The notes under the pieces: generated by a model
Told to the model about the DNA's origin: nothing
Database searches by the model: none
What the model saw: only the letters and a program-made list of their open reading frames with translations
In this document: positions 4,488 to 16,488 of the stretch, piece by piece
How positions within the stretch are numbered: position 1 is the first letter of the stretch
Layout: each line of letters begins with the position of its first letter
Position numbers and translations under genes: made by a program
Virus record (IMG/VR): IMGVR_UViG_3300036715_002841
Span: 1-39,144 of that record
Direction: 5' to 3' (one strand)
Source of the DNA: a virus
DNA: 39,144 nt

Positions 4488-4561
4488 TGGAGCGGGTGAA
4501 GGGAATCGAACCCTCGTATGAAGCTTGGGAAGCTGCCGTTCTACCATTGAACTACACCCGC
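4488..4561 (-). tRNA. tRNA-Gly (anticodon CCC)
   Basis: Read on the minus strand, the acceptor GCGGGTG (4561-4555) pairs with CACCCGC (4498-4492), followed by discriminator T and encoded CCA. The D arm is GTTC-AATGGTA-GAAC, the anticodon loop TTCCCAA gives CCC, and the T arm is GAGGG-TTCGATT-CCCTT. The anticodon stem has one C-U mismatch. Total length is 74 nt with CCA. The prophage integrase starts 218 bp upstream of its 5' end, so this tRNA is the obvious attachment-site candidate, although the prophage lies on the 5' side of the tRNA rather than the usual 3' side. Confidence 0.95.
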
Positions 4562-4778: not shown

Positions 4779-6221
4779 TTGTTTTTCGACGCCCGCGCCG
4801 CCAAACTGCTGCAGCCAGGCGCGCATCTGGTGGTGGACGGCTGCCCCGGCCTGCGCCTGGTGGCCACCGCCAGCCGCCGCACCTGGACGTACCGCTACAA
4901 AGATGCCGCGGGCCGCATGAAGCAGCGCGCTCTGGGCCAGTGGCCCGCCATGCCCGTGCAAGTCGCGGTGACCGAGTGGCAGGCGCTGCGCAACGCCAAG
5001 GCCGCCGGAGCCGACCCCGTGCAACAGAAAAAGGCCGACCGCGCCGCCCAGATCGCCGCCAGCGCCCCGCAAGCCACCGTGCGGCACCTGGTGGGCCAGT
5101 ACGTGGCCGAACACCTCTACGCTGCCCGCAAGCCCAAAGGCGCCGCCGCGGCCGAGCGCGCCCTCAACGCCCTGATGGCCGCCCAGCCCGCCTTCGCCGC
5201 CATGGCGCCGGCCGACGTTACCCGCCAGATCGCCTTCGACGTGTTGGCCAGCCGCAAAGACACCCCTACCCAGGCCGCCAAGCTGCGCAGCCTGCTCGGC
5301 GCCGCGTGGGACTATGCGCTCGACGCCGGCCGCCTGGGCGGCAACGTGCCCAACTGGTGGCGCGTGGTCATGAAAGGCCGCCTCAAAAGCAAAGGCCGCC
5401 TGGTGGCCGGCCAGCATGTCGGCCAGCAGCGCCGCGTGCTGCCCGCGCCCGAGGTGGCCGAGCTGCTGCGCTGGCTGCCCAACATGCACCCGCTGGGGCA
5501 AGACGCCACCGTCATGTATCTATGGACGTGCACGCGTGGCGGCGAGTTTCTGGCCATGCGCCCCGAGCACCTGGCCAAAGAGGCCACAGGCTGGTGGTGG
5601 ACCGTGCCCAAGGCCCAAACGAAAAACGCCGACAATCCCCTGGCCGTGGATCTGCGCGTGCCCCTGTTCGGCCGCGCCCTCAAGATGGTGCAGCGCCGCT
5701 TGAAAGCGGTGGGCCCGTCCGGCTGGCTGTTTGAGGACGCCCGGGGCGAGCAATACACCCAGCACGACTTTAGCACCTACATCTACCACCTGCAGCCCTA
5801 CAGCGCCAAAGCCGCCGCCCGCGTGCGCGAAGGCGGCCTGGTGCTGCCTGTCACCAACTGGACCCCACACAACCTGCGCCGCACCGCCCGCACCCTGCTG
5901 GCCAGCCTGGGCTGCAGCAACGAGGTGGGCGAGGCCATCGTCGGCCACATGCCCAAAGACATGGTGGCCACGTACAACGCCTACACCTACGACAAAGAGC
6001 GGCGGGTGTGGCTCAAGCGGCTGGCAGATTATTTGGAGGGATTGGGACGAGCCAAAGGCTCCCATCGAACGCACCCAAAATCCTCGGCTGTGGCCAGGGC
6101 GGCGAAAAACTCCGAACCATCGATCAATGTGAAGCCATTGGACTCGGGGGGTGATTCGGCAAACGCCTGTGATGGCATTTTGCACACCCGGGTATCAAAG
6201 CCGCGCTTCATCGGTTCATAA
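4779..6221 (+). CDS. int: prophage tyrosine recombinase (integrase)
   Basis: This 480-aa site-specific recombinase integrates and, with an excisionase, excises the prophage. It has a P4-type N-terminal arm-binding domain (MFFDARAAKLL to ALGQWP, about 1-55), a core-binding SAM-like domain (about 100-200) and a catalytic domain with the Arg in CTRGGEF (Arg253), HNLRRT (His364, Arg367), VGH (His390) and the likely nucleophile Tyr404 in YDKERR. The start is TTG at 4779 with GGGGAG 9 nt upstream; the ATG at 4747 lies in another frame. The C-terminal 60 residues are low-complexity and overlap a convergent small gene by 193 bp. Full catalytic set, so probably active. Confidence 0.93.
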   Translation: MFFDARAAKLLQPGAHLVVDGCPGLRLVATASRRTWTYRYKDAAGRMKQRALGQWPAMPVQVAVTEWQALRNAKAAGADPVQQKKADRAAQIAASAPQATVRHLVGQYVAEHLYAARKPKGAAAAERALNALMAAQPAFAAMAPADVTRQIAFDVLASRKDTPTQAAKLRSLLGAAWDYALDAGRLGGNVPNWWRVVMKGRLKSKGRLVAGQHVGQQRRVLPAPEVAELLRWLPNMHPLGQDATVMYLWTCTRGGEFLAMRPEHLAKEATGWWWTVPKAQTKNADNPLAVDLRVPLFGRALKMVQRRLKAVGPSGWLFEDARGEQYTQHDFSTYIYHLQPYSAKAAARVREGGLVLPVTNWTPHNLRRTARTLLASLGCSNEVGEAIVGHMPKDMVATYNAYTYDKERRVWLKRLADYLEGLGRAKGSHRTHPKSSAVARAAKNSEPSINVKPLDSGGDSANACDGILHTRVSKPRFIGS

Positions 6222-6319
6222 GTGTCGGGGTCGATGGGGTTGCAAATCTTGGCCTCCCGCCATTCGTCGCCATCATCGGTTGGATTTTTCCAATGGGCAC
6301 AGGTTTTGCAAGTGTTCAT
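6029..6319 (-). CDS. small Cys-containing phage protein
   Basis: A 96-aa protein beginning MNTCKTCAHW, with CKTC near the N-terminus and further Cys at about 27, 47 and 82, suggesting a metal-binding mini-domain of a kind common in temperate-phage early regions. Its ATG overlaps the stop of the upstream HTH gene by 4 nt (ATGA), so it is the last gene of the leftward block that starts near 9724. It overlaps the 3' end of the convergent integrase gene by 193 bp. Function unknown. Confidence 0.7.
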   Translation of the reverse strand: MNTCKTCAHWKNPTDDGDEWREAKICNPIDPDTYEPMKRGFDTRVCKMPSQAFAESPPESNGFTLIDGSEFFAALATAEDFGCVRWEPLARPNPSK

Positions 6320-6588
6320 GGTGCCGCCTCATCCTTCGTCATCTTACCGCGCCCATGCCCGCTGTTCGGCGGCGGCAACAAATCCGACACCGGCCTGGTG
6401 CGCGCCCATTCCTTCAGGTCTTCGACCAGGTAGTTGGCCTTGCCGCTCGACACCTTGCGCGGCTTGGGAAACAGGCCCATGGCGGCCAGCTTCTGCATCA
6501 GGCTGGTGGACATGTCCAGAGCCGCGGCGGCCTTGTCGGCGTCCAGCAGCAGCGGCTCCATGGTGATGAGGGGTTGGGGGTCGGTCAT
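6316..6588 (-). CDS. small HTH protein, probable excisionase/AlpA-type regulator
   Basis: Starting at the ATG at 6588 (AGGAG about 11 nt upstream) the product is 90 aa. Residues about 14-60 (LLLDADKAAAALDMSTSLMQ, then GLFPKPRKV and YLVEDLKEW) match the winged-helix pattern of MerR/AlpA-like DNA-binding proteins that serve as recombination directionality factors. Its position two genes from the integrase supports that role. A longer reading to 6669 has no support. The gene is joined to its downstream neighbour by an ATGA overlap. Confidence 0.7.
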   Translation of the reverse strand: MTDPQPLITMEPLLLDADKAAAALDMSTSLMQKLAAMGLFPKPRKVSSGKANYLVEDLKEWARTRPVSDLLPPPNSGHGRGKMTKDEAAP

Positions 6589-6592
6589 ATCT

Positions 6593-7900
6593 TCAAAACT
6601 CCTGCCCGTCGAACAAGCAACACAAATCCTGCTGCAGCCTGCAGCGCCACAACGCCGTTGCCGACGCACTTGAGGCGTGCGGCTCGGCTATCACCCATGT
6701 CGAAGGCCAGCCCATTAACCATGCTCCGAAAAGCGGGTTCAAGTGCCGGCGCGAGCTCGGGGTTGCGGGCGATGACTGCGCCCCAGCGTGGGTCGGCTGG
6801 ACCAGGGGCGAAAATTCCACAAAGGCCGAAAGCGTCGGCCCGCCAGGATGGTTGTTGTAGTGGTTCACAGTGGCTCCCCCCCCCGTTCGCTCTTGTGGTC
6901 GCGGGCTGCTGGTGTGGGCCACTGCTTCACCGCATAGGCAATCGTGGGGCGTGTGGCCGCACCGGCAGATGCCGACTTGTTGTTGCGCCTGTTCGGGTTG
7001 GTGTCCGGTGTCGGCCACTGTGCCGCCGCACTGGGTAGCATCAGGTCGCCTTTGCTGCCCTGTTGGTTGGGGCCGCCCTTGGTGCCGTCCGATGCCTTTG
7101 GGCTCGGCCAGAACCTCACTTGAGATTCCAGCCCTACAGTCCGCTTCTCGCCCTCCGGCGTCATGCCCTTGGATGCAACTATTTCCCCTGAAACGCTCCG
7201 GCCTCCGTTCGGTACGTTCGGTACGTTCGGTGTGAGCCATTGGCCCGCCTGATCCCGAATGTTCGGCCCCATTTTCCCGTTGCTGTAGGTGCTGGTGTTG
7301 CAATCTGGCATGGCCCAGTCTGCGCCACGCAAAGCAAAACCACCTTGCCCGCCCATGATTGGCGCCCACGTCGGACGCTGAAAGAGTGACCCATTCCGCG
7401 TCCCACCCGCGGTCGGCCAGTTCTCCCACGACGCGGGCGGCCGCGCGTTCTTCGAGCTCGCCTTCGGCCTCGTCCACAACGGAGGCGGTGGCAGTAGCGA
7501 TGGCGCTGACGTTCTCCAGAGAGAGGCACCACGCACCGCAAGCGTCGGCAACGTCGAGGATGTTGAAGAACAGGCCCGAGCGCTTGCCGTCAAGCCCGGC
7601 GCGCTGGCCGGCGATACTGATATCCTGGCACGGGAATCCTGCGCAAATGCAGTCCACCAGGCCGCGAAGTCGGTCTGCTGGCAACTGGGTGAAATCGCCG
7701 CACCATATAGGCGCCGCATCCAGGCTTCCTTCTTCCATGCGGCTTTCCAGTACCGCGCATGGGTGTGCTTCCCGCTCAGCGTAGCAGACGCAGCGGCTGT
7801 CAATGCCCAGGTGTCGAAGTCCGGCTGCAACGCCTTCATCGAGCATGCCGACGCCTGCGCATAGGCTGAGCGTATGGAGGATGGGACGATCCACATTCAT
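6593..7900 (-). CDS. C5-cytosine DNA methyltransferase, probably frameshifted
   Basis: The open frame encodes 435 aa with the N-terminal C5-MTase motifs: SAM loop LSLCAGVGMLDEG (11-23), catalytic GFPCQDIS (Cys91), LENV (128-131) and VGANHGRARWF (178-188). After about residue 195 the open frame no longer looks like one protein. The +1 frame carries WPTP-type repeats typical of phage enzymes (around 7240, 7105, 7010 and 6912), the original frame resumes at LNPLFGAWLMGWP after a C9 tract (6876-6884), and a third frame carries motif X (RLKCVGNGVVALQAA, about 6690-6628) and stops at 6585. That third-frame stop would recreate the 4-nt ATGA overlap seen at the block's other gene junctions. The most likely reading is a decayed or mis-sequenced modification enzyme. 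Confidence 0.8.
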   Translation of the reverse strand: MNVDRPILHTLSLCAGVGMLDEGVAAGLRHLGIDSRCVCYAEREAHPCAVLESRMEEGSLDAAPIWCGDFTQLPADRLRGLVDCICAGFPCQDISIAGQRAGLDGKRSGLFFNILDVADACGAWCLSLENVSAIATATASVVDEAEGELEERAAARVVGELADRGWDAEWVTLSASDVGANHGRARWFCFAWRRLGHARLQHQHLQQRENGAEHSGSGGPMAHTERTERTERRPERFRGNSCIQGHDAGGREADCRAGISSEVLAEPKGIGRHQGRPQPTGQQRRPDATQCGGTVADTGHQPEQAQQQVGICRCGHTPHDCLCGEAVAHTSSPRPQERTGGGATVNHYNNHPGGPTLSAFVEFSPLVQPTHAGAQSSPATPSSRRHLNPLFGAWLMGWPSTWVIAEPHASSASATALWRCRLQQDLCCLFDGQEF

Positions 7901-8511
7901 GCGGCCCTTCGCTGGTAAATCTTGCTCAAATCACCCTTAACCACAAATCCCCGCCCGCGCAGCACCCGCGCCACGCGCGCCCTGTCCGCGTGCCCATGGT
8001 CAGCCTGCCCCATCAGCCCTAGGTAGCTGTTGCCGGCCGCAAACACATCGCTCGCCGGCAGGGTGCGCAGCCGTTGCGTAGCCACGTTCACCGTGCGCCG
8101 GCGCGTGGTTCGCCGCCACGGCTTGCTGACCTGGCCCACAAAGTCAACGCCGCGCGCCACATCGCTGTTGCTGCCCATGGATGCGGCCTTCTCGACGTAG
8201 CTGGACAGCCGCTTGGTCATCATGCGCCGGTCATCCATTTCTGCCAGGTGGGGCCGGAATGTGCCGCCACAGGCATTGCACTTGTACCGCCTGCGAATCA
8301 GCCAGATGGTGACCCGCTTGTGGTGGATTGGCACGTCACGGTAGGACTGGTCTTCCTTGCCGAACTTCACCCAGTTGTCGATGACGCCACAGGCCTCGCA
8401 GCAGCGCGGCTCAGGGGTTTCGACATGGAAGTGGTAGTCGTGGTCCTCTTCCTTGACGCTGACCACCGTCAGTTTCAACGGGTGGAGCAGGTTGGTAGGG
8501 TCCATGGTCAT
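7897..8511 (-). CDS. ISL3-transposase-like zinc-finger/HTH protein
   Basis: The 204-aa product begins MTMDPTNLLHPLKL. It shows two CxxC knuckles (CCEAC at about 37-41 and CNAC at about 77-80) and the YRDVPIHHKRV/RRRYKCNACGGTF block found in the N-terminal zinc-finger of ISL3-family transposases. The catalytic DDE domain is absent. From about residue 130 the sequence (LRTLPASDVFAAGNSYLGLM and RVARVLRGRGF) resembles a separate winged-helix phage module. So it is either a domesticated transposase DNA-binding domain or a fusion. It is coupled by 4-nt overlaps to both neighbours, arguing that it is a true phage gene and not an insertion sequence. Confidence 0.65.
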   Translation of the reverse strand: MTMDPTNLLHPLKLTVVSVKEEDHDYHFHVETPEPRCCEACGVIDNWVKFGKEDQSYRDVPIHHKRVTIWLIRRRYKCNACGGTFRPHLAEMDDRRMMTKRLSSYVEKAASMGSNSDVARGVDFVGQVSKPWRRTTRRRTVNVATQRLRTLPASDVFAAGNSYLGLMGQADHGHADRARVARVLRGRGFVVKGDLSKIYQRRAA

Positions 8512-9218
8512 TGGATTGGGCCTGTGGATAAGTCTTGAGCGAGACGGGTCATGCCCTTGGCGGTGATGCGGGCCTGGGTGTCAATCCACTCGGACCCGTC
8601 GCTCTTCTCGCCTCGGGTGATTTTGTGCTCGACCAGACCCTGCTGGAGCTTGTCCGAGTAGGCCAGATAGCCGGAGCCCATCGGACGCCGGTACAGCCAG
8701 CGGCGTTCGAGCAGGGCCTGCTTGAGGGTCTTCTCCTGCACCTGGAGCGTTTTGGCGGCATCCCGGATGCAGAAGGAGCCATCAGCCAGCGCAAGCCGGT
8801 CCAGGGCCTCAGCCTTGGGAGCCAGCGCCACCACCTTGCTCTCCAGGTGCAGGCGCTGTTCTTCCGAGTCCAAGGCCAGCTTGAGCAGGTCCACCCGAGA
8901 CAGCGCGGCGATGGGGTTGCGGGCCTGCTCTTCAAGCTGCTGCCAGCGGTCCACCAGTCGGGCCGTGAACTCAGGGGAGAGCTGGGCAACGATGACATAG
9001 CTGTCACGCTTGCCGATGCGGTACTCAGTCATGGTCTGTTTCCGGCCATCGGCACCTGCAAATGACGTTTCCACAATTTGTGGAAGCGCTATGACGCCCT
9101 TTTCTGCCAGGGTGTCGATGGTCCGCTTCACGCTGTCGTGGCGTTTCTCGGTCAGGTCGGCCATTTCCTTGCTAGTCATGGTCATGTCTGGGGCTTGGGA
9201 GACGGTAAGGGCGGTCAT
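8508..9218 (-). CDS. phage antirepressor, Rha N-terminal plus KilAC domain
   Basis: A 236-aa protein. Residues about 10-95 (MTSKEMADLTEKRHDSVKR, FAGADGRKQTMTEYRIGKR, PEFTARLVDRWQQLE) match the Rha regulatory domain. Residues about 130-230 (CIRDAAKTLQVQEKTLKQ, WLYRR, GYLAYSDKLQQGL) match the C-terminal KilAC/ANT domain of antirepressors. Such proteins bind and inactivate phage repressors to promote induction. It sits downstream of a C4-type antisense RNA, the known arrangement for controlling antirepressor translation in P1/P7- and P22-like phages. ATGA overlaps join it to both neighbours. A perfect DnaA box (TGTGGATAA, 8523-8531) near its 3' end is probably chance. Confidence 0.88.
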   Translation of the reverse strand: MTALTVSQAPDMTMTSKEMADLTEKRHDSVKRTIDTLAEKGVIALPQIVETSFAGADGRKQTMTEYRIGKRDSYVIVAQLSPEFTARLVDRWQQLEEQARNPIAALSRVDLLKLALDSEEQRLHLESKVVALAPKAEALDRLALADGSFCIRDAAKTLQVQEKTLKQALLERRWLYRRPMGSGYLAYSDKLQQGLVEHKITRGEKSDGSEWIDTQARITAKGMTRLAQDLSTGPIQ

Positions 9219-9724
9219 GCTGATGCTCCTTGGGATTGTTCTGTGGTGCTGGACTTGGCGGGGCGGCCGCGCTTGCGTGGAGCTAGGTCACCCAGCAGAT
9301 GGGTGCGGAAGGCCATGTACTTGTCATCCTGCTTGGCCTTGTAGGCGCGTTCCCAGGTCTTGCTCCACTCACTGGACCGGCCACGCACAAGTTCAGCCAG
9401 CTCACGGGTCTTCTCTTGAATCCTGTAAGTGCTGCAGCCGGTCCCTTTGACGGACATGTCGAGCACCCAGTAGTCGCCGTCTGCCCAGACGCTTTGCGGA
9501 CCTTTGATGCCTTCTGGGCGGCGCCGCTGCATCCAGTATTCGAACTTGCCTGCTTCCCAGCTTTGGCGCGAAGTGCGTTGCGGCCATTTGAAGTCGTTAG
9601 GGATTAGACCCTCGGCAACGAGCTGGGCGCGTGTGCCACGGAAGCGGCAAATCCAGCGGGGGGTGATTTCAATGACGAGGTCAGATGCGAGAAGGGCAGC
9701 GGTGCCCGTAGAGATGTCAGCCAT
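9215..9724 (-). CDS. phage protein of unknown function preceding the antirepressor
   Basis: A 169-aa protein starting MADISTGTAALL at the ATG at 9724, with AGGAGT 5-6 nt upstream. The frame can be read open to 10675, but the ribosome binding site and the C4 RNA in between decide for 9724. Visible segments are ITPRWICRFRGTRAQLVAEGLIP, split by a Trp-rich stretch (KWPQRTSRQSWEAGKFEYW), and a basic C-terminus (PRKRGRPAKS) resembling an AT-hook. It occupies the place of the first gene of a C4-controlled antirepressor operon. Function not recognised. Confidence 0.75.
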   Translation of the reverse strand: MADISTGTAALLASDLVIEITPRWICRFRGTRAQLVAEGLIPNDFKWPQRTSRQSWEAGKFEYWMQRRRPEGIKGPQSVWADGDYWVLDMSVKGTGCSTYRIQEKTRELAELVRGRSSEWSKTWERAYKAKQDDKYMAFRTHLLGDLAPRKRGRPAKSSTTEQSQGASA

Positions 9725-9776
9725 AAATGACTCCTGGTAGGTTTTGAACCTGCCACCCACGCGACCAAGCGAGGGA

Positions 9777-9847
9777 GGCAGACCGTACGGGTTGGTCGAC
9801 CGGACCAGGGACCGGCACCCCCTTGCGGGAGTCCCGCACGGCCTGCC
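9777..9847 (-). ncRNA. C4-type antisense RNA
   Basis: On the minus strand GGCAGGCCGTGCGGG (9847-9833) pairs with CCCGTACGGTCTGCC (9791-9777): 15 bp, two of them G-U wobbles. Inside are a CTCCC-GCAA-GGGGG hairpin with a GNRA loop and a TGGTC-CGGTC-GACCA hairpin. Size (71 nt), three-stem layout and location in front of an antirepressor operon match C4 RNAs of P1/P7-like phages. The C4 segment CGACCAA is complementary to TTGGTCG at about 9766-9759, just downstream and ahead of the 9724 ribosome binding site, as expected for the antisense target. Confidence 0.78.
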
Positions 9848-9871
9848 AAAAATGGAGCCATGCTGTGCAAC

Positions 9872-9906
9872 AAAAAAGCCGCTGACCTGTTGAGGGGCGC
9901 GGCTTT
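9872..9906 (-). terminator. intrinsic terminator ahead of the C4 RNA
   Basis: On the minus strand AAAGCCGC (9906-9899) pairs with GCGGCTTT (9882-9875), followed by a run of T (plus-strand A6 at 9872-9877). It would stop leftward transcription arriving from the avd/brn side before the C4/antirepressor block. Confidence 0.6.
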
Positions 9907-9989
9907 CGTTGCGCCTGGAATCCGGGCGACCAAGCCCGACTTCTTTCGAAGTGAGCGAATCATAAACCCGGAATTTCAGAAATGCAAGC

Positions 9990-10039
9990 GCATCTACAAA
10001 ATACTTTTCTTTGGTTGGTTTTGCATCTACAATTTGCCC
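9990..10039 (+). promoter_or_regulatory. probable brnT promoter and operator repeats
   Basis: The 10-bp sequence GCATCTACAA occurs at 9990-9999 and 10023-10032, 33 bp apart, a plausible binding pair for the BrnA antitoxin that autorepresses such operons. The second copy contains TACAAT (10028-10033), a good -10 box. A start about 7 nt later falls on the brnT ATG at 10040, which has no Shine-Dalgarno sequence, so the transcript may be leaderless. The -35 region is weak. Inference from position only. Confidence 0.4.
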
Positions 10040-10312
10040 ATGGTCACTTACGATGAAGTCAAACGCCAAGCCAACATCAAGAACCACGGCTTGGACTTCC
10101 TTGGAAGCGAGGCGGTGTTTGAAGGCTTCACCATCACCCGTGAAGATGCGCGTGATGCTTACGGTGAACTGCGGCTGCAAACGCTGGGCTTGTGGAATGG
10201 CATTGTGGTGTTTGTGGTGCATACCGCTCGCGGCAATGCAGACCACGTAATTTCGATTAGAAAGGCAGAAAAGCATGAAGAACGCATCTACTGGAAAAAC
10301 TTCCCCGACTGA
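10040..10312 (+). CDS. brnT: BrnT-family ribonuclease toxin
   Basis: A 90-aa protein with the BrnT pattern: an N-terminal MVTYDEVKRQANIKNHGLDF block, a central strand region ending in VVFVVHTARG, and the C-terminal VISIRKAEKHEERIYW helix containing the family's conserved Arg/Lys/Glu residues. BrnT is a RelE-fold ribonuclease that inhibits translation until bound by BrnA. It overlaps brnA by 38 nt, the usual toxin-first order of this type II system. It lies divergently from the C4/antirepressor block and convergently to avd, so it is an independent cassette inside the prophage. Confidence 0.88.
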   Translation: MVTYDEVKRQANIKNHGLDFLGSEAVFEGFTITREDARDAYGELRLQTLGLWNGIVVFVVHTARGNADHVISIRKAEKHEERIYWKNFPD

Positions 10313-10559
10313 AATGGTCAACGACCCAGACAGCCCCAGCACCAGCGTTTCCGACTGGGAAGGTGCCGTTCTCAAGCAAGGCGGCGTCGTGGTTGGGCGT
10401 GCCCGTACACGCGGGCCTAACCGTGGACCACTCAAGGAGCAGGTGGCAGTGCGGTACAGCCCAGACGTGCTGGCAGCATTTCGTTCCACCGGGGCAGGAT
10501 GGCAGACCCGCATGAATGAAGCTTTGCGGGACTGGCTGCGCACCCATTCGCCGGTGTAG
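10275..10559 (+). CDS. brnA: BrnA-family antitoxin
   Basis: A 94-aa protein starting MKNASTGKTSP at 10275. The C-terminal half holds a ribbon-helix-helix-like DNA-binding segment (VAVRYSPDVLAAFRSTG, then WQTRMNEALRDWL) characteristic of BrnA/CopG-type antitoxins; the N-terminal part is expected to wrap BrnT. It probably autoregulates the operon through the GCATCTACAA repeats upstream of brnT. The stop is 43 bp from the convergent avd stop; no terminator is apparent in the gap. Confidence 0.85.
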   Translation: MKNASTGKTSPTEMVNDPDSPSTSVSDWEGAVLKQGGVVVGRARTRGPNRGPLKEQVAVRYSPDVLAAFRSTGAGWQTRMNEALRDWLRTHSPV

Positions 10560-10601
10560 TTCACACACAAATCAACCGAAGAATCCGAAGAAGTTGAAAA
10601 G

Positions 10602-11060
10602 TCAGTAAACATGGCTATCAACCGGATATTCCGAATACCCAGAAAAAGAAAACAAATCACCCGTGCCGCCACCACCTGCGCCTCCGCCAGATCCTGGCCC
10701 GGGCCCGCCGTCCGCCAGCGTGGCCTTGCGCCAGCCGGTGGACTGCTTGCCTACGGCGTCCAGCACCTCAATGGACTGGCCCCACAGGTTTTTGGAAATC
10801 AGCCGGCGCTCAAACGCCACGCGCAGCATCACCGAGGCGGCGCGCAGCAGGCGCAACACGGTGTCAATCTGCTGCACGCGCATTTCGCCCCGGCAGGCAT
10901 TGGCCATGGCAATCGCCTCCAGCATTTCCACGCACATGGCGCTCACCTTCTCGCCCAGGCTGCGCTTGAACTCGCGCTTGATCTGGGTTTGCACCTCCAG
11001 CGCCAGGCCGAGCAGGGCGCAGCCGTCTTTGTAGATTTGCAGTTCTGTGTAAATGGCCAT
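10602..11060 (-). CDS. avd: Avd-like DGR accessory variability protein (four-helix bundle)
   Basis: A 152-aa, mostly helical, basic protein: MAIYTELQIYKDGCALLGLA, the KREFKRSLGEKV region, MLEAIAMANACRGE, IDTVLRLLRAASVMLRVA and LISKNLWGQSIEVLDAVGKQ, ending in GWRK. This is the four-helix-bundle pattern of bAvd, which in Bordetella phage BPP-1 forms a pentamer that binds the DGR reverse transcriptase and template RNA. The last 40 residues (GGPGPGSGGGAGGGG and beyond) are atypical low-complexity sequence. It is the last gene of the leftward operon containing four DUF1566 genes with DGR-like variable regions. No reverse transcriptase follows; brnTA lies there instead. A hairpin with a T-tract precedes it. 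Confidence 0.8.
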   Translation of the reverse strand: MAIYTELQIYKDGCALLGLALEVQTQIKREFKRSLGEKVSAMCVEMLEAIAMANACRGEMRVQQIDTVLRLLRAASVMLRVAFERRLISKNLWGQSIEVLDAVGKQSTGWRKATLADGGPGPGSGGGAGGGGTGDLFSFSGYSEYPVDSHVY

Positions 11061-11078
11061 GATGGTTCTGGTGTGGTC

Positions 11079-11108
11079 AAAAAAAATCGCGCGACCGGCT
11101 GCGCCGGT
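11079..11108 (-). terminator. GC hairpin plus T-tract downstream of VR-D
   Basis: Minus strand ACCGGC-GCA-GCCGGT (11108-11094) is followed by CGCGCGA and T8 (11086-11079). It looks like an intrinsic terminator between VP-D and avd. A near-identical copy follows VP-C at the same distance from its variable region, so it may equally be the DNA hairpin that DGR targets need downstream of the variable repeat. Confidence 0.65.
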
Positions 11109-11138
11109 GGGGTGGGGTTGCGCGGGCTGGTGGTGGGC

Positions 11139-11672
11139 TTAAAGCGTTGAAGTGTTCAAGAGCTCAAGCGGAATCCGGCGGAAGGCACGCACCCGATGCT
11201 CGTAGTCCTTGAAGCCCCAGTGCGAGATGCCGATCTCGAAGCCCTGCACGAAGGCGCTGATGCGAGAGTCCTGCGTGCTGCTCCAGTAATAACCGTCTTT
11301 GCTGAACAGCTCCGGTACGTTGGCGGCGGCCATGTTCAATTCGCCCAGGGCGGGCAGATACCAGTCGCCATGCCCGCCAATGTCGCACTCGCGTGCGCGG
11401 CGCGCGGCTGGGCAGCCGGCGGCCAGCATAGCTTCGGTGTTGGCCAAGCCGTCTGTACGGCTGGCGCAGCCGGGCACGTCTTCACCATACTTGCCCCAGG
11501 CAACGCCAACAGCCTCGTCGCCCGCCTCATCGGCCACCAGCAGGGCGTAGGGCGGGGCCTCAATGCCGTCAACAACGGAGCCGCGCATGATGCCGGCAAA
11601 ATACCCGCCCTGGCCTGGCACAATGACGCCAAAGGCCGGCAGGGTGAGGGTAATGGTTGAGTCAACTTTCAT
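11139..11672 (-). CDS. DUF1566 DGR-type variable protein VP-D
   Basis: A 177-aa protein starting MKVDSTITLTLP at the ATG at 11672 (GGAG 8 nt upstream). It carries VPGQGGYF near the N-terminus, a DWYLPALGELNM block, and the C-terminal DUF1566 (Lcl-type, C-type-lectin-like) fold signature YYWSSTQ to HRVRAFR. The C-terminal 36 codons form a variable region (11178-11285) aligned to those of three sister proteins. Such proteins are ligand-binding scaffolds diversified by DGRs. No signal peptide is obvious. It shares an operon with VP-C and avd; a hairpin/T-tract follows its stop. Confidence 0.85.
   Translation of the reverse strand: MKVDSTITLTLPAFGVIVPGQGGYFAGIMRGSVVDGIEAPPYALLVADEAGDEAVGVAWGKYGEDVPGCASRTDGLANTEAMLAAGCPAARRARECDIGGHGDWYLPALGELNMAAANVPELFSKDGYYWSSTQDSRISAFVQGFEIGISHWGFKDYEHRVRAFRRIPLELLNTSTL
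11178..11285 (-). other. DGR-like variable region VR-D
   Basis: A 108-bp block from TGG (11285) to CGC (11178). Counting TGG as codon 1, codons 6, 9, 10, 15, 18, 20, 22, 24, 25 and 28 are NNC codons that differ among the four paralogues, here GAC, ATC, AGC, GGC, ATC, ATC, CAC, GGC, TTC and TAC. The 3' end (CGGGTGCGTGCCTTCCGC) lacks A, as expected for an initiation-of-mutagenic-homing end. Confidence 0.8.
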
Positions 11673-11707
11673 GATCAAAACTCCTTCAGGTTGCGGGGCA
11701 TGGCCCC

Positions 11708-11738
11708 AAAAAAAATCGGCGCGACCGGCTGCGCCGGT
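11708..11738 (-). terminator. GC hairpin plus T-tract downstream of VR-C
   Basis: Minus strand ACCGGC-GCA-GCCGGT (11738-11724) is followed by CGCGCCGA and T8 (11715-11708). It is almost identical to the element after VP-D and lies 70 bp from the end of VR-C. Terminator-like, but possibly the post-variable-region DGR recognition hairpin. Confidence 0.65.
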
Positions 11739-11787
11739 ATGCGGGGTGTAGCTGGGTTGGCGATTAGGTGCTGAAGCGTTAAAGTGC

Positions 11788-12420
11788 TTAAGCGCTCAAG
11801 GGAATCCAGCGGAAGGCACGCACCCGAGGCTCGTCGTCCTTGCCGTCCCAGTCCGAGCAGCCGTACTCGAAGTCCTGCACGAAGGCGTTGCCGCGAGAGA
11901 CCTGCGTGCTGCTCCAATACCAACCTTCTTTGCTGAACAGTTGCGGCGCGCTCAAATAGGCATACAGCCAGTCCATGCGAGAAGGCAAATAAAAGTCGGT
12001 GTGCCCATCCGCCGTGTAAGCCCTGGCCCACTGCGCGGCGGCAAACTTGGTGCCCAGTGCCACCAGCGCGGCGGTGTTGGCGGGCCCGTCAGTGTGGCTT
12101 TTGGCGTCGGTGTCGTGGTCGTAAATACCCCACTTGGCGGTTGTTTCACCTTCGCCCGTCACCAGGTGGCGCGCTGGCATGCCAAACAGCGCGGGCAGCG
12201 TGCAGAGGTAGAGCCCGCCCTGGCCGGGCCAGTATTCACCCGGCGCCGGCGGCTCCGCCAAGGCATTTTTGGCGGCGAAGCTGGCGGCCCGCAAGCTGCT
12301 CTCGTCCGCCGTGCTCTCGCCGCGCACTGTCAGGCCGGTAAACCCCGGCAGTCCCTGTTCAAGCCCGGCCAGGCTGGCGATGTGAATGGTTGCGTTTTTG
12401 AAGTGGATGTGGGTTTGCAT
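11788..12420 (-). CDS. DUF1566 DGR-type variable protein VP-C
   Basis: A 210-aa protein beginning MQTHIHFKNATIHI at 12420; the open frame runs further upstream but overlaps the preceding gene. Recognisable segments are EYWPGQGGLYLC (about residues 75-86), DFYLPSRMDWLYAYLS, and the C-terminal DUF1566 core WYWSSTQ to PRVRAFR, ending in WIPLSA. The variable region is 11809-11916. The N-terminal half is unrelated to those of VP-A and VP-B, so the same diversified lectin-like domain is displayed on a different carrier. Function of the displayed ligand-binding surface is unknown. Confidence 0.85.
   Translation of the reverse strand: MQTHIHFKNATIHIASLAGLEQGLPGFTGLTVRGESTADESSLRAASFAAKNALAEPPAPGEYWPGQGGLYLCTLPALFGMPARHLVTGEGETTAKWGIYDHDTDAKSHTDGPANTAALVALGTKFAAAQWARAYTADGHTDFYLPSRMDWLYAYLSAPQLFSKEGWYWSSTQVSRGNAFVQDFEYGCSDWDGKDDEPRVRAFRWIPLSA
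11809..11916 (-). other. DGR-like variable region VR-C
   Basis: 108 bp, aligned without gaps to VR-A, VR-B and VR-D. The ten diversified codons read GTC, GGC, AAC, GAC, TAC, TGC, GAC, GAC, GGC and GAC; constant codons between them are identical to the sisters down to the third base. Confidence 0.8.
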
Positions 12421-12455
12421 GGTGTGCCCGATGGGTGGTGGTTGAAAAAAGCGCC

Positions 12456-12836
12456 TCAAGCCGCATCGGCCCGTGGCATGTCGTAAAGCGCCGCCTTCAG
12501 CGCCCATTTCGTCTCTTCGCGCCAGGCGCCTTGGCGAATGTCTTCAAGCGCTTGGGTGATCAATTGGGCCGGCACAGTCACCGTCAATGGCGGCAGCGCC
12601 TGGAGCGCCGGGCCTGCCTTGAAAACAAAGCCAACAGACTGGCGCCGCTCGCGCACCAGCCATTTGGCTTTGCAAGCCCAGCGCAATTGCGCGCTTATGC
12701 GGCTCAAGTCGGTCACGCCAAACAGGTCAGCCATACTGGCGGCGTCCAGCACGGCCATGGGGTACAGCCGCAGGTAGTGCACTACCTTGACGCTGAGGCG
12801 TCCAGCGCGCGGTGCGTAAATGTGCTTGCTGCCCAT
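12456..12836 (-). CDS. phage winged-helix-like protein
   Basis: A 126-aa protein starting MGSKHIYAPRAGRLSVK at 12836. The middle (MADLFGVTDLSRISAQLRWA, then CKAKWLVRERR) has the look of a winged helix-turn-helix with a following basic helix. Its start nearly touches the stop of the upstream membrane-protein gene. It belongs to the leftward early operon. Specific function not recognised. Confidence 0.65.
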   Translation of the reverse strand: MGSKHIYAPRAGRLSVKVVHYLRLYPMAVLDAASMADLFGVTDLSRISAQLRWACKAKWLVRERRQSVGFVFKAGPALQALPPLTVTVPAQLITQALEDIRQGAWREETKWALKAALYDMPRADAA

Positions 12837-12837
12837 G

Positions 12838-13077
12838 TCAGTTGCCCGCCAGCCGCTGCGCGGCCTGGTGAATGCGCGCGTTGAACCATCGGCGAACGCA
12901 GTAGCTGCGCAAAATGCTGCTCACCGTAAAAATGCAGGTAATCTGCAGGTTTTGCCCCAACGTCACCGCGTGCCCGTAGGCCGGCAGCACCACCGCCGTC
13001 AGCCCCAGGCTGACCACAAAGCCAATGGCCACGTTGATGACGGCCTCAATCAGGCTGCTGATGCGGCTCTGGCTCAT
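12838..13077 (-). CDS. small membrane protein of the DUF7220 type
   Basis: A 79-aa protein starting MSQSRISSLIEAV at 13077. It has two predicted membrane helices (VINVAIGFVVSLGLTAVV and about residues 41-58, ITCIFTVSSILRSY) and an aromatic/basic end (RRWFNARIHQ). This pattern is frequent in early regions of temperate phages. The ATG overlaps the upstream stop by 4 nt. Role unknown; inner-membrane location inferred from hydrophobicity. Confidence 0.7.
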   Translation of the reverse strand: MSQSRISSLIEAVINVAIGFVVSLGLTAVVLPAYGHAVTLGQNLQITCIFTVSSILRSYCVRRWFNARIHQAAQRLAGN

Positions 13078-13265
13078 GCCACAGCACCCTGTTGCCTGCA
13101 CTTGGCCTCATACTCCTTGCGCGCGCCCAGAAACGCCGCCTTGAAGGCGTGCGCCGCGTCCGAGCCAAAGGGGTATGGGCAAGCGTCGTTCACGCTGGCA
13201 TAGCGCTTGGCGGCGGCCTGAGCTTCCAGCACAATTTTCATGATGGAGATGACGGGCTCGCTCAC
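13074..13265 (-). CDS. small phage protein, unknown
   Basis: A 63-aa protein from a GTG at 13265 (MSEPVISIMKIVLEAQAAAK). The GTGA overlap with the upstream DUF2303 stop sets the start. Predicted helical, with a central CPYPFGSDAAHAFKAAF motif. No function recognised; its place in a chain of overlapping genes supports that it is expressed. Confidence 0.65.
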   Translation of the reverse strand: MSEPVISIMKIVLEAQAAAKRYASVNDACPYPFGSDAAHAFKAAFLGARKEYEAKCRQQGAVA

Positions 13266-14119
13266 GGCGTTCCAATCAGCACCGTGTATCCGCTGGCTTC
13301 GCGTACGTTGGACACATAGCCTGCAAAAGCATCTTCCACCGACTTTTCAGGGCGGTCCAGCTCATACCAGAATTTCACCGATCCGCCAGATAGCCTATAT
13401 TTCAGCCGCGCCTTCAGCTTGTAGCCGTCGCCGTTCTTGAAGATGCGCAGGCCCAGCGCAAATTCCTTGGGGATCTGCACCGCGCCGCCGGTGCCAGCCT
13501 TGGCGTCGATGTTCTCGACGTAGCTGAGTTGCGTCTGCCCATCCTGCAGCCGCTTGGCGCTGCTGAAGCTGATGCCGCTAGTGGCCTGGATGGTGGTCGC
13601 CACCTCCAGCAGCGCCTGGGCGAATGGCTCAGGTATGTCGGCCATGTTGTCTTCAATGAACTCAGCAAATGCGGTCTGGTCCATTTGCTGGCCATTGGCG
13701 CGCAGCCAGCGGGAAAACTCGGGCGTGTACTCGGCCGTGAATTCGGCGCGGTGGTCGCGCCAGCCGGGGGTGTCCGCCGCGCGCTGGTCGTTGAACACGG
13801 CGGTAATGGTCCGTGTATCGGGGTCGGCGTAGATGTAGCCATTGGCTGCATAAGCCTGGTCTTTGCAATAGGCCAGCAGGCTGGGAATATCTTTCAGCTT
13901 CACGGCGCCGCGCTTGCGGTTGGGGGTGCCTTTAGCCTTTTCAATGGCATCGGTGATTTCACGGTGTGTGAAATTGGGTGGTACCAGCAGGTGCCAGGTG
14001 TCGCCCACCTCTTTGGGTTCGAGCGCGGCAGCGCCCAGGCTGGCCACCAGTTTGGCGGTGTCGCCGTCGCAGCCGGCCACGATGGCTTGCGTGCGCGTGT
14101 TGTTGTCGGGTGTGCCCAT
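13262..14119 (-). CDS. DUF2303 family phage protein (YfdQ-like)
   Basis: A 285-aa protein from the ATG at 14119 (MGTPDNNTRTQAIVAG), where the start overlaps the upstream TAA stop. Recognisable family blocks are HLLVPPNFTHREITDAIEKA, TITAVFNDQRAADTPGW, FAEFIEDNMADIPEPF and VENIDAKAGTGGAVQIPKEF. DUF2303 proteins are common in lambda-like and Mu-like early regions, often near recombination genes, but have no settled activity. It lies mid-operon between small unknown genes. Confidence 0.85.
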   Translation of the reverse strand: MGTPDNNTRTQAIVAGCDGDTAKLVASLGAAALEPKEVGDTWHLLVPPNFTHREITDAIEKAKGTPNRKRGAVKLKDIPSLLAYCKDQAYAANGYIYADPDTRTITAVFNDQRAADTPGWRDHRAEFTAEYTPEFSRWLRANGQQMDQTAFAEFIEDNMADIPEPFAQALLEVATTIQATSGISFSSAKRLQDGQTQLSYVENIDAKAGTGGAVQIPKEFALGLRIFKNGDGYKLKARLKYRLSGGSVKFWYELDRPEKSVEDAFAGYVSNVREASGYTVLIGTP

Positions 14120-14508
14120 TATTTGACTTCCTTCAGCGGTTGGACGACGCCATCGGCGTCTGGTTTGGAAAATGCCGACGCAGCGGGTGCGCCGGTATTG
14201 TGTGCATCGCGCAGGTCCAGCGAATGCTGGCGCGGGTGCTGGCGCGATGTTTCGGCCTCGTCGGTGAGCCAAAAAAAGTCGCTGGGCTGCTCTGGCTTCG
14301 GAAGCTCCAGCTTGCGGTCGGCGTTGACGGTGATCTTGTCCACCTCACTGCCGCCCTTGCTGGCCGGCGCAATCTTGATCTTCAGCGTCATGGAACCAGC
14401 GCGTCCGGTGTTCTTCACCGTTTGCAGCAGTTCGGCCAGGTCAGCCGTCAGGCCGGCGTGTGTTTGACCATCGTTGAGGTCATGGAGAAAAAGGGCGAAG
14501 GCTTTCAC
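14119..14508 (-). CDS. phage early protein, unknown
   Basis: A 129-aa protein from a GTG at 14508 that overlaps the upstream stop (GTGA). The first half (LLQTVKNTGRAGSMTLKIKI, KITVNADRKLELPKP) looks like a beta-rich domain that regularly precedes DUF2303 genes in phages; the C-terminal 40 residues are Ala/Pro/His-rich. No catalytic motif is visible. Probably a partner of the DUF2303 protein, inferred from adjacency only. Confidence 0.65.
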   Translation of the reverse strand: MKAFALFLHDLNDGQTHAGLTADLAELLQTVKNTGRAGSMTLKIKIAPASKGGSEVDKITVNADRKLELPKPEQPSDFFWLTDEAETSRQHPRQHSLDLRDAHNTGAPAASAFSKPDADGVVQPLKEVK

Positions 14509-14864
14509 TTTGAGTTGTGCTCCGTGGTTGATTGGTCATCAATCAATTCATCCTGCGTGCGAGCCACCAGCGGCCCCGGAACGCACTGCGTTTTCCAGTC
14601 AATCGGGTGGCCATCCACGCCCAGCACCACGCGCTTCACGTGCCGCACCGTGCGCGCCTGCGTGGCCTTGAATTCATCGGTGCGGATCTTGCGGGCCAGC
14701 AGCTCAATGGCCAGCCGCGCGCTGGGCTTGGTCATGGCCGCCGTAAAGCTCAGCGCCGCCAACTCGCGGTTGCGCAGTGCCATGCGCTCGTACGCCTCTC
14801 GCTGGTGCGCCTGCGTCACCGGCGGTAGGTCGGCGGGGTTGATGCGCAACGTGCTGGTGGACAT
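14505..14864 (-). CDS. phage early protein, unknown
   Basis: A 119-aa protein starting MSTSTLRINPADLPPV at 14864, with GGGAGG directly upstream. It is mostly helical and basic (REAYERMALRNRELAAL, ARTVRHVKRVVLGVDGH) and ends in an acidic/polar tail (DELIDDQSTTEHNSK). Its stop overlaps the next gene's GTG. No family assigned. Confidence 0.65.
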   Translation of the reverse strand: MSTSTLRINPADLPPVTQAHQREAYERMALRNRELAALSFTAAMTKPSARLAIELLARKIRTDEFKATQARTVRHVKRVVLGVDGHPIDWKTQCVPGPLVARTQDELIDDQSTTEHNSK

Positions 14865-14874
14865 GGCCTCCCGC

Positions 14875-15099
14875 TCAAACAAAGTGCGCCACAGCCGCCC
14901 AGAAGGCGCGCACCAGCGCATCGCCCCAGGCGCCCTTGACCCACATGGCAATACCCAGCGTGGTAGCGATGCTGAGCACGGCCACAGCCAGAAGCGACAG
15001 CAAATACGCCGCGTGCTCCCAGATGCCGCGCTCGTCGTTATCCGCGAACCACACGGGCAGGTCATCATCGTCGTTGTTGTTGTTGTCGATTGCATTCAC
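14875..15099 (-). CDS. small single-pass membrane protein with Asn/Asp-rich N-terminus
   Basis: A 74-aa protein from a GTG at 15099 overlapping the upstream stop. It begins with an NNNN-DDDD stretch encoded by an AAC/GAC/GAT run, then WFADNDERGIWEHAAY and one or two hydrophobic helices (LLSLLAVAVLSIATTLGIAM). The Asn/Asp run could vary in length by slippage. Role unknown, possibly paired with the next membrane protein. Confidence 0.6.
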   Translation of the reverse strand: MNAIDNNNNDDDDLPVWFADNDERGIWEHAAYLLSLLAVAVLSIATTLGIAMWVKGAWGDALVRAFWAAVAHFV

Positions 15100-15479
15100 G
15101 GCCGCACCTCCACCACGCGCTTGCTGCCGCCGTGCTTGTCGGTGCATTGCGCCGTGGTGGGCATCAATATTCGAATGGCCGAATTGGGGCCGCAGGCCGC
15201 GTAGGCCGCCCGCTCCAGATCGCTCTGCTCCAGGGTGCTTTTGAGCGTGGCCTCCAGTTGCGCGGCGCGCGCCCGGTCGCTAGAATGGTCCGGCACGCTG
15301 CATCCGCCCAGCGCAAGCGCCAGGCAACACACTGCCGACAGTAGCATGTAGGCCGCCGGCCAAAACCAACGCGGCCGCCCCAGCGCGACGTACAAGTCCT
15401 CAAACCCATGAGCCGCAGCCGGGCGGGTGCTCGCGCGGGTGTTGGCTCTGGCGCTATTAGGGGTTGGCGCGGCCTTCAT
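15096..15479 (-). CDS. phage membrane protein, unknown
   Basis: A 127-aa protein starting MKAAPTPNSARANTRAS at 15479, overlapping the VP-B stop. It has a membrane segment (about residues 40-59, WPAAYMLLSAVCCLALALGG) followed by CSVPDHSSDRARAAQLEATL, which resembles a lipobox but lies unusually far from the N-terminus. The C-terminal part contains two more Cys. The first residues MKAAP repeat the MKAAI start of VP-B, because a duplicated segment includes both start regions. Confidence 0.6.
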   Translation of the reverse strand: MKAAPTPNSARANTRASTRPAAAHGFEDLYVALGRPRWFWPAAYMLLSAVCCLALALGGCSVPDHSSDRARAAQLEATLKSTLEQSDLERAAYAACGPNSAIRILMPTTAQCTDKHGGSKRVVEVRP

Positions 15480-15627
15480 GCGGCCACCCCGGCAGACGCC
15501 AAAAAATTCGCGCCGGCGCCTTCGGCGCCACCAGGTGCCGCATCTGCATCCGCAACCACCTGAGCAGGCGTTGAAGTGTTGAAGTGTTCAAGTGGCAATC
15601 CACGGAAGGCACGCACCCGACGCTCGT
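15470..15627. repeat. 158-bp direct repeat, copy 1 (3' end of VP-B)
   Basis: Nearly identical to 15958-16115, offset exactly 488 bp. It spans the start of the following gene, the VP C-terminus, the GGCGCC hairpin, a TTGAAGTG-like iteration and the constant 3' end of the variable region. It marks a tandem duplication of a VP gene and is a substrate for homologous recombination. Confidence 0.9.
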
Positions 15628-15967
15628 CGTCCTTGAAGCTCCAGTACGCGCCGCCGCCCTCGAAGCCCTGCACGAAGGCGACGTTGCGAGAGCTCTGCGT
15701 GCCCGTCCAATACCACTGCGGCTCAAACATGATCTTGGCATTGGAAAACGCCAGCGACATTTCGTGCCGCGTGGCCAGCCGCGCCCCGTTGCCCAAGCTG
15801 GCAGCCCATTTCACGCCCTTGGCCCAGGTCATGCTGGGCGTGGGCGGCAATGCATCCAGCATGATGACGTGCCGCGCCGTCCCGCCGTCAGTGTCGGCGG
15901 CTATGCCGATGTAGGTTGCAGCCAACTCGGGGAGATGCTGGCCGGGGGCGGGGATAGCGGCCTTCAT
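15476..15967 (-). CDS. DUF1566 DGR-type variable protein VP-B
   Basis: A 163-aa protein starting MKAAIPAPGQHLPELAA at 15967, overlapping the VP-A stop. HLPELAATYIGI and the MTWAKG/SLGNGARL blocks are shared with VP-A, showing that the two are tandem paralogues. The lectin-like core runs from QWYWTGTQ to RRVRAFR with variable region 15602-15709. The C-terminus (DADAAPGGAEGAGANF) is encoded across the GGCGCC hairpin. No signal peptide. The diversified surface differs from VP-A at nine of ten NNC codons while the carrier is conserved. Confidence 0.85.
   Translation of the reverse strand: MKAAIPAPGQHLPELAATYIGIAADTDGGTARHVIMLDALPPTPSMTWAKGVKWAASLGNGARLATRHEMSLAFSNAKIMFEPQWYWTGTQSSRNVAFVQGFEGGGAYWSFKDDERRVRAFRGLPLEHFNTSTPAQVVADADAAPGGAEGAGANFLASAGVAA
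15501..15529 (-). other. GGCGCC-GAA-GGCGCC hairpin with T-tract after VR-B (inside VP-B)
   Basis: Stem 15529-15524/15520-15515 on the minus strand, T6 at 15506-15501; 72 bp after VR-B. It lies inside the coding sequence, which argues against a simple end-of-gene terminator. Confidence 0.65.
15602..15709 (-). other. DGR-like variable region VR-B
   Basis: 108 bp. The ten diversified NNC codons read AGC, AAC, GTC, GGC, GGC, GGC, TAC, AGC, TTC and GAC. The neighbouring constant codons match the other three regions at all three positions. Confidence 0.8.
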
Positions 15968-16115
15968 GCAGCCACCCCGGCAGAAGCCAAAAAATTCGCG
16001 CCGGCGCCTTCGGCGCCACCAGGTGCCGCATCTGCATCCGCAACCACCTGAGCAGGCGTTGAAGTGTTGAAGTGTTCAAGTGGCAATCCGCGGAAGGCAC
16101 GCACCCGATGCTCGT
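15958..16115. repeat. 158-bp direct repeat, copy 2 (3' end of VP-A)
   Basis: Partner of 15470-15627. Differences are a few scattered substitutions; divergence rises sharply once the diversified codons of the variable region begin. Confidence 0.9.
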
Positions 16116-16488
16116 AGTCCTTGCCGTACCAGGCCGAGATGCCGTACTCGAAGTCCTGCACGAAGGCGCCGAAGCGAGAGAACTGCGTGCTGGTCCAGTA
16201 GTACCCGCTGCCCAGGCAGTCGCCCAGGTTGGCGTGAGCCAGCATGGCTTCTGCCTGCGTAGGCAGTCGCGCGCCATTGCCCAGGCTTTCTGCCCAGGCC
16301 ATGGCTTTAGCCCACGTCATCACGGCGCAAGGCGCTTGCACGTCCAACATCACCAGGTGGCAGGCTGGGCCGCTGGCGCAATCATCGGAGATGCCGATGT
16401 AGGTGGCGGCCAGCTCGGGCAGATGCTGACCGCGTGTGGGTGGGGTGGCGGCCGTTGCTTGGGCGGCCTGGGGGGCGGTTGTTGGCAC
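15964..16488 (-). CDS. DUF1566 DGR-type variable protein VP-A, first gene of the operon
   Basis: A 174-aa protein from a GTG at 16488 (MPTTAPQAAQATAATPP), with GGAG 6-7 nt upstream. After a Thr/Ala-rich leader it shares HLPELAATYIGI, MTWAKAMAWAESLGNGARLP and the lectin-like core YYWTSTQ to HRVRAFR with VP-B. The variable region is 16090-16197. It is the promoter-proximal gene of the leftward operon whose promoter (16561-16532) is overlapped by repressor-type operators, so expression should rise on induction. Function of the displayed domain is unknown; typical DGR variable proteins bind external ligands or receptors. Confidence 0.85.
   Translation of the reverse strand: MPTTAPQAAQATAATPPTRGQHLPELAATYIGISDDCASGPACHLVMLDVQAPCAVMTWAKAMAWAESLGNGARLPTQAEAMLAHANLGDCLGSGYYWTSTQFSRFGAFVQDFEYGISAWYGKDYEHRVRAFRGLPLEHFNTSTPAQVVADADAAPGGAEGAGANFLASAGVAA
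15989..16017 (-). other. GGCGCC-GAA-GGCGCC hairpin with T-tract after VR-A (inside VP-A)
   Basis: Minus strand GGCGCC (16017-16012), GAA loop, GGCGCC (16008-16003), then GGCGCGAA and T6 (15994-15989). It starts 72 bp after the end of VR-A. The C(GAA)G triloop is a very stable DNA mini-hairpin. The same element follows VR-B at 15529-15501. Different stem sequence from the VP-C/VP-D hairpins but the same place. Confidence 0.65.
16090..16197 (-). other. DGR-like variable region VR-A
   Basis: 108 bp. The ten diversified codons read TTC, TTC, GGC, GAC, TAC, ATC, GCC, TAC, GGC and TAC; all keep C at the third position, consistent with AAC or GAC codons in an unseen template repeat. Confidence 0.8.

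Follow-up and report, generated by a model that had tools for sequence, protein, structure and literature searches.

How can a phage carry an array of variable genes that bears the marks of a diversity-generating retroelement (DGR), when neither a template nor a reverse transcriptase (RT) is at hand to diversify it? This question is raised by IMG/VR record IMGVR_UViG_3300036715_002841, a provirus fragment of 39,144 nt with no wider assembly, which we analysed over its whole length (the window). In our reading, the window very probably holds a recently decommissioned phage DGR with a frozen four-gene array.

The left ~4.5 kb of the window is host DNA, with a CoA-ligase gene and an aldehyde-dehydrogenase-like gene, and is followed by a tRNA-Gly gene and then by the phage integrase. 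The tRNA gene probably serves as the attachment site, and its counterpart at the right end does not lie within the record. The record breaks off just past a large tape-measure-like gene on the right and thus holds an incomplete provirus. The features at the boundary and beside the cassette are the following.

4488-4561: tRNA-Gly (CCC), adjoining the integrase at the host–phage boundary.
4779..6221, plus strand: integrase, 64-66% identical to the integrase of L167 and L168, two relatives whose DGR is complete.
6593..7900, minus strand: DNA methyltransferase gene (phrog_29583, E=2e-92), which comes after the RT remnant described below.

The array itself consists of four target genes and the accessory gene avd, all on the minus strand.

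15964..16488, minus strand: target T1, Lcl_C/DUF1566-like, 174 aa, intact (Pfam Lcl_C E=0.003; phrog_4245 E=2e-5).
15476..15967, minus strand: target T2, 163 aa, intact (phrog_4245 E=6e-5), 68% identical to T1.
11788..12420, minus strand: target T3, 210 aa from the annotated ATG, intact (phrog_4245 E=1e-24).
11139..11672, minus strand: target T4, 177 aa, intact (Lcl_C E=1e-5; phrog_4245 E=7e-28).
10602..11060, minus strand: avd, 152 aa (phrog_3206 'Avd protein of DGR', E=1e-17).

In none of the four targets does the Lcl_C match reach the Pfam cut-off (E 1e-5 to 0.02); their phrog_4245 matches extend from E 7e-28 to 6e-5, two of them being weak. The T1 and T2 genes share a nearly identical 3' flank of more than 100 bp (window 15476-16089) with diverged upstream parts, and comparison of the two suggests that their 3' ends were recently duplicated or converted. 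The avd gene stands beside the array with an open reading frame. Its product matches Pfam bAvd slightly under the Pfam cut-off (E=6e-9), and an alignment of eight Avd proteins places the homology in residues 1 to ~113, the remaining glycine-rich tail being non-homologous. An earlier note on this DNA had called the gene Avd-like; the two family matches agree with it and answer against an unrelated four-helix protein.

That note had also described four gapless 108-bp regions, at 16090-16197, 15602-15709, 11809-11916 and 11178-11285. These coordinates are exact, and all four blocks are in frame on the minus strand. Our recount confirms that the four genes agree fully in 21/36 codons and that ten codons of the block (6, 9, 10, 15, 18, 20, 22, 24, 25 and 28) differ, with C as the third base in every case. 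The blocks are real, but their extent needs correction: comparison with relatives puts the start of the repeat proper near codon 4, so that the differences at codons 2-3 fall outside it. The variable repeats are thus placed as follows, near the 3' ends of the target genes.

16090..16188, minus strand: variable repeat of T1, codons 4-36 of the block.
15602..15700, minus strand: variable repeat of T2, with two likely non-adenine changes.
11809..11907, minus strand: variable repeat of T3.
11178..11276, minus strand: variable repeat of T4.

Over codons 4-35, the variable first, second and third positions number 10, 10 and 0 (32 of each; Fisher p = 1.1e-4). Synonymous differences inside the repeats occur at 0-1 of 21-25 shared residues, whereas upstream of the repeats different codons are used at 22/44 residues shared by T1 and T2 and at 18/45 shared by T3 and T4. 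The constant bases of the window repeats read CGCAG..CTCTCGC..C..CGCCTTCGTGCAG, and some of them (TCT, GTG CAG and GTG CGT) are the window's own.

Such a pattern might also be ascribed to ordinary gene duplication and conversion, together with selection for diversity at binding residues, and the near-identical flank of T1 and T2 indicates that some duplication or conversion did happen. Such processes do not account for an invariant wobble base, with positions 1 and 2 alone varying inside a block outside which synonymous changes are many, nor for an avd gene and an RT stump adjoining the array. Homologous cassettes with a demonstrable template already refute this explanation, and we give an origin without a DGR next to no credence.

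These cassettes were reached through Avd. A single-protein Avd scan of the viral contigs gave no match; an alignment-based query found 142 relatives in IMG/VR, of which 80 were kept. Among the sampled genomes, Avd searches gave complete cassettes in L105-L108 and L110, and two distant chromosomal DGRs, L088 and L089 (Dechloromonas and Hydrogenophaga), served as RT queries only. The nearest relatives, L161-L168, have Avd proteins 63-67% identical to that of the window over the first 114 residues and carry complete cassettes in the order targets–avd–template repeat (TR)–RT, with the template just after avd and mostly two to four variable repeats per available stretch. In L167 the full order is targets, avd, TR, a PAPS-reductase-like gene, RT, a 109-aa gene, an excisionase-like gene and integrase; the PAPS-reductase-like gene (L167:10680-11444) thus lies between the template and the RT of an otherwise complete DGR.

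The template of L167, TCGCAGAACTCGCGCAACAACGCCTTCGTCCAGGACTTTGAGAACGGCAACTCGAACTGGAACAACAAGGACAACGGGCATCGGGTTCGTGCCTTCCGC, equals the one that can be inferred for the window, with AAC/GAC at the variable codons, apart from a handful of mostly synonymous differences. The 18 repeats counted in L161-L168 (one more L161 row, out of register, was left out) differ from their templates at adenines only, besides the first base at the repeat edge. Judged against these templates, the variation of the window repeats is likewise of the adenine type. Since the relatives' repeats differ from their templates only at adenines, and these templates match the inferred one, we conclude from sequence comparison that a DGR made the window array, as the earlier note had proposed. 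The constancy of several adenines in the window repeats (in CAG, AAG and GAG) was considered as an objection to adenine mutagenesis and rejected, because live relatives mostly keep these adenines as well.

No match to RVT_1 was found anywhere in the 39-kb record, and, in agreement with the earlier note, no adenine-rich copy of the repeat either; pattern scans for the repeat across viral contigs and genome contigs returned chance matches only. The earlier statement that no RT is in view holds in functional terms, as a DGR-type RT with catalytic motifs (GxxxSQ, YxDD) is absent from the window. It overlooked, however, a stump of the C-terminal ~86 residues at 7897-8160, outside the interval then considered. 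The ORF that contains it (7897-8511, on the same strand as avd and between avd and the integrase) is a chimera of an ISL3-family transposase (residues 1 to ~122) and the C-terminus of a DGR RT (the last ~86). For the first part, the match is to phrog_5749, an ISL3-type family of transposases (residues 6-127, E=2e-26); for the second, it is to phrog_1423, a family of phage reverse transcriptases (residues 118-184, E=5e-6), within the profile segment corresponding to the C-terminus of the intact L167 RT. The remnant is 51-66% identical to the C-termini of intact DGR RTs (E down to 1e-32). A reading of the ORF as a plain transposase was rejected on account of this tail.

DNA homology to L161, L166, L167 and L168 ends at 10725, near the avd end, and restarts at 8154-8160. 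The intervening DNA has the following content.

8161..10724: replacement block of ~2.5 kb, in the place of the template repeat and the N-terminal three quarters of the RT.
10275..10559, plus strand: brnA antitoxin gene (BrnA_antitoxin E=2e-19), within the block.
10046..10312, plus strand: brnT toxin gene (BrnT_toxin E=2e-19), within the block.
9215..9727, minus strand: gene with no family match, within the block.
8508..9218, minus strand: Rha/KilAC-type phage antirepressor gene, within the block (ANT E=1.5e-24; Phage_pRha E=3e-10; phrog_63).
8146..8511, minus strand: N-terminal fragment of an ISL3-family transposase, ~122 of ~445 residues, ending a few codons from the RT junction.
7897..8160, minus strand: RT remnant of ~86 C-terminal residues, joined in frame to the transposase fragment and lacking any catalytic motif.

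The brnTA pair, which had been said to occupy the place of template and RT, does lie inside the block, but it is merely one part of the replacement. No direct or inverted repeats of at least 11 bp were found flanking the replaced block. Over its residues 1-122 the transposase fragment shares 71% identity with an ISL3 transposase from a plasmid, and the antirepressor gene overlaps the chimeric ORF by 4 bp. On plasmid NZ_CP064404.1, an ISL3 transposase has a 4-bp overlap with an upstream BRO-family gene; the arrangement is similar to that in the window, yet the upstream genes share no detectable similarity, and homologues of the antirepressor or of gene 9215-9727 were not detected beside the two plasmid ISL3 elements examined. 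It is plausible that the antirepressor was carried by the transposon.

With its template and every RT catalytic motif replaced, the window cassette is unable to work in cis. The RT stump is syntenic with the RT of the relatives, lying on the same strand as theirs between avd and the integrase; its presence in the expected place, fused to a transposase fragment, favours the frozen remnant that the earlier note had offered as one option. The junction might instead be a misassembly, the true provirus having an intact RT and template, given that transposases are common misjoin points and that the record is an assembled provirus fragment. We consider this highly improbable: the fusion is in frame and lies inside both the transposase (residue ~122 of ~445) and the RT, and the genes to either side are arranged as in a single phage lineage (integrase 64-66%, DUF2303 65% identical to those of relatives).

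The four target ORFs and avd are still open, which counts against a remnant, and the repeats have hardly drifted, which means a recent loss or some form of continued maintenance. We find about two likely non-adenine changes in the four repeats, both in T2 (codon 21 GCG and codon 36 CGT). Such a small number is expected for recent inactivation. Set against 0 in the 18 live repeats, these 2 changes give p = 0.03, in a comparison that relies on an inferred base of the template, on rounded counts of positions and on four sequences; as a weak hint, they may represent early ordinary drift.

The same near absence of non-adenine changes and the open frames of targets and avd would also fit a live array, served in trans by a template and an RT located elsewhere (in another prophage, in the host chromosome or in the part of the provirus beyond the right end of the record) together with a resident or foreign Avd. 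There is a precedent in Pseudogulbenkiania NH8B, where distant targets beside a mutated RT were proposed to be served by another RT (PMC3521204). Nonetheless, the relatives have their RT between avd and the integrase, where the window has only the stump, and in the assembly of a comparable genome, G164, no such template/RT pair was found. We rate supply in trans as unlikely, because the constant bases specific to the window and shared by its repeats require a matching template, not merely any RT.

To place the window among other cassettes, we surveyed 95 avd loci (80 viral and 15 genomic), two of which end too early to be judged. The RT is intact in 83/93 judged loci and not intact in 10/93, which keep their targets; the loci were counted without dereplication, and misassembly may lie behind some of the cases. 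The damage is independent and takes several forms. L174 has lost the RT core and kept its template. The RT is truncated in L111, in L190 and its near-copy L192, and in L236, and at its C-terminus, near the contig end, in L222. L197 has an RT C-terminal stump directly after avd and no template, in L109 and L194 only the leader region is left, L109 keeping the spacer after avd, and in L147 the catalytic motif is changed.

Several loci show features of their own. The most telling, L109:9772-13165 in genome G164, holds three Lcl_C targets with almost purely adenine-type variation as well as avd, and neither a template nor a DGR RT was found in the whole 3.7-Mb assembly of G164. L147 (genome G477) encodes a full-length DGR RT with the catalytic motif YVDN instead of YVDD, accompanied by a template and by two repeats that vary strongly at adenines. 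Outside the surveyed set, G002 (IMGVR_UViG_2597489885_000003) has three variable repeats and an RT C-terminal stump at ~5938-13312; avd and template were not detected in this 58-kb record, which we regard as another dismantled cassette. In IMG genome 2684622590, the proviruses L004 and L005 carry two variable repeats each, of which one is identical between them and the other differs at adenine-type sites. The L004 and L005 records are without RT, template and avd, and the pair is a candidate case of arrays diversified in trans inside a single cell.

Arrays devoid of template and RT (the window, L109, L197 and G002) could also be maintained 'satellite' DGR targets, mostly with avd, that other phages re-diversify in trans with their own templates and RTs and that are not dying remnants; we hold this to be very unlikely.

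Under the preferred reading of a decommissioned DGR, the ancestor would have had the order targets–avd–template–RT–...–integrase, as in L161-L168. One adenine-rich template diversified the four paralogous Lcl_C genes by mutagenic retrohoming, as the codon pattern and the homologous templates show. The array was presumably diversified by its own DGR until recently, when insertion and deletion put an end to it: comparison with the relatives shows that the ~2.5-kb block replaced the avd end, all of the template and the RT's catalytic region, in one event or several. Left without template and polymerase, the four genes and their proteins would be fixed variants in cis. The four target genes are probably frozen, and T2 may already have started to drift in the ordinary way.

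The puzzle of the missing RT is settled, the RT having once been present and then destroyed, and the window becomes a clear case of a phage retaining several DGR-made variants after loss of the machinery. The ten damaged cassettes among the 93 avd loci form a natural set in which to ask how long frozen variants persist and whether loss of the RT is favoured once a good variant has been found.

Bordetella phage BPP-1 is the prototype of the Avd-type DGRs. The window resembles the complete Avd-type phage DGRs of L161-L168 in its several Lcl_C targets, its avd, their order and strand and, as far as it can be reconstructed, the template sequence, and shares with L167 and L168 the position next to the integrase; it differs from them in that its template is gone and its RT is cut down to the C-terminal ~86 residues. 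Schillinger et al. described in 2012 DGR RTs truncated by transposon insertion, nonsense mutation or frameshift, and took the presence of adenine changes alone as a sign of recent inactivation (PMC3521204). Those inactivated DGRs share with the window the disruption of RT by a mobile element and repeats with (almost) only adenine-type changes, but they keep their template, whereas the window has lost it and retains four targets and an RT–transposase fusion (PMC3521204). In Treponema denticola, Nimkulrat et al. reported target genes left without RT and TR (PMC4891356). There, as in the window, targets outlast RT and TR; these remnants, however, are chromosomal surface-protein genes of a spirochaete, without the context of avd and an RT stump, while the window is a prophage (PMC4891356). 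Pseudogulbenkiania sp. NH8B has distal targets beside a mutated RT and a second RT elsewhere, for which service in trans was proposed (PMC3521204). It is like the window in that targets lie next to a strongly mutated RT, and unlike it in that a second working RT and template are present in the same genome, the window being known from its 39-kb record (PMC3521204). With truncated DGR RTs described since 2012, broken DGRs like that of the window are already known as a kind; the window adds a well-resolved member, new in the detailed make-up of the wreck and in how many targets survive, together with a small survey of other cassettes.
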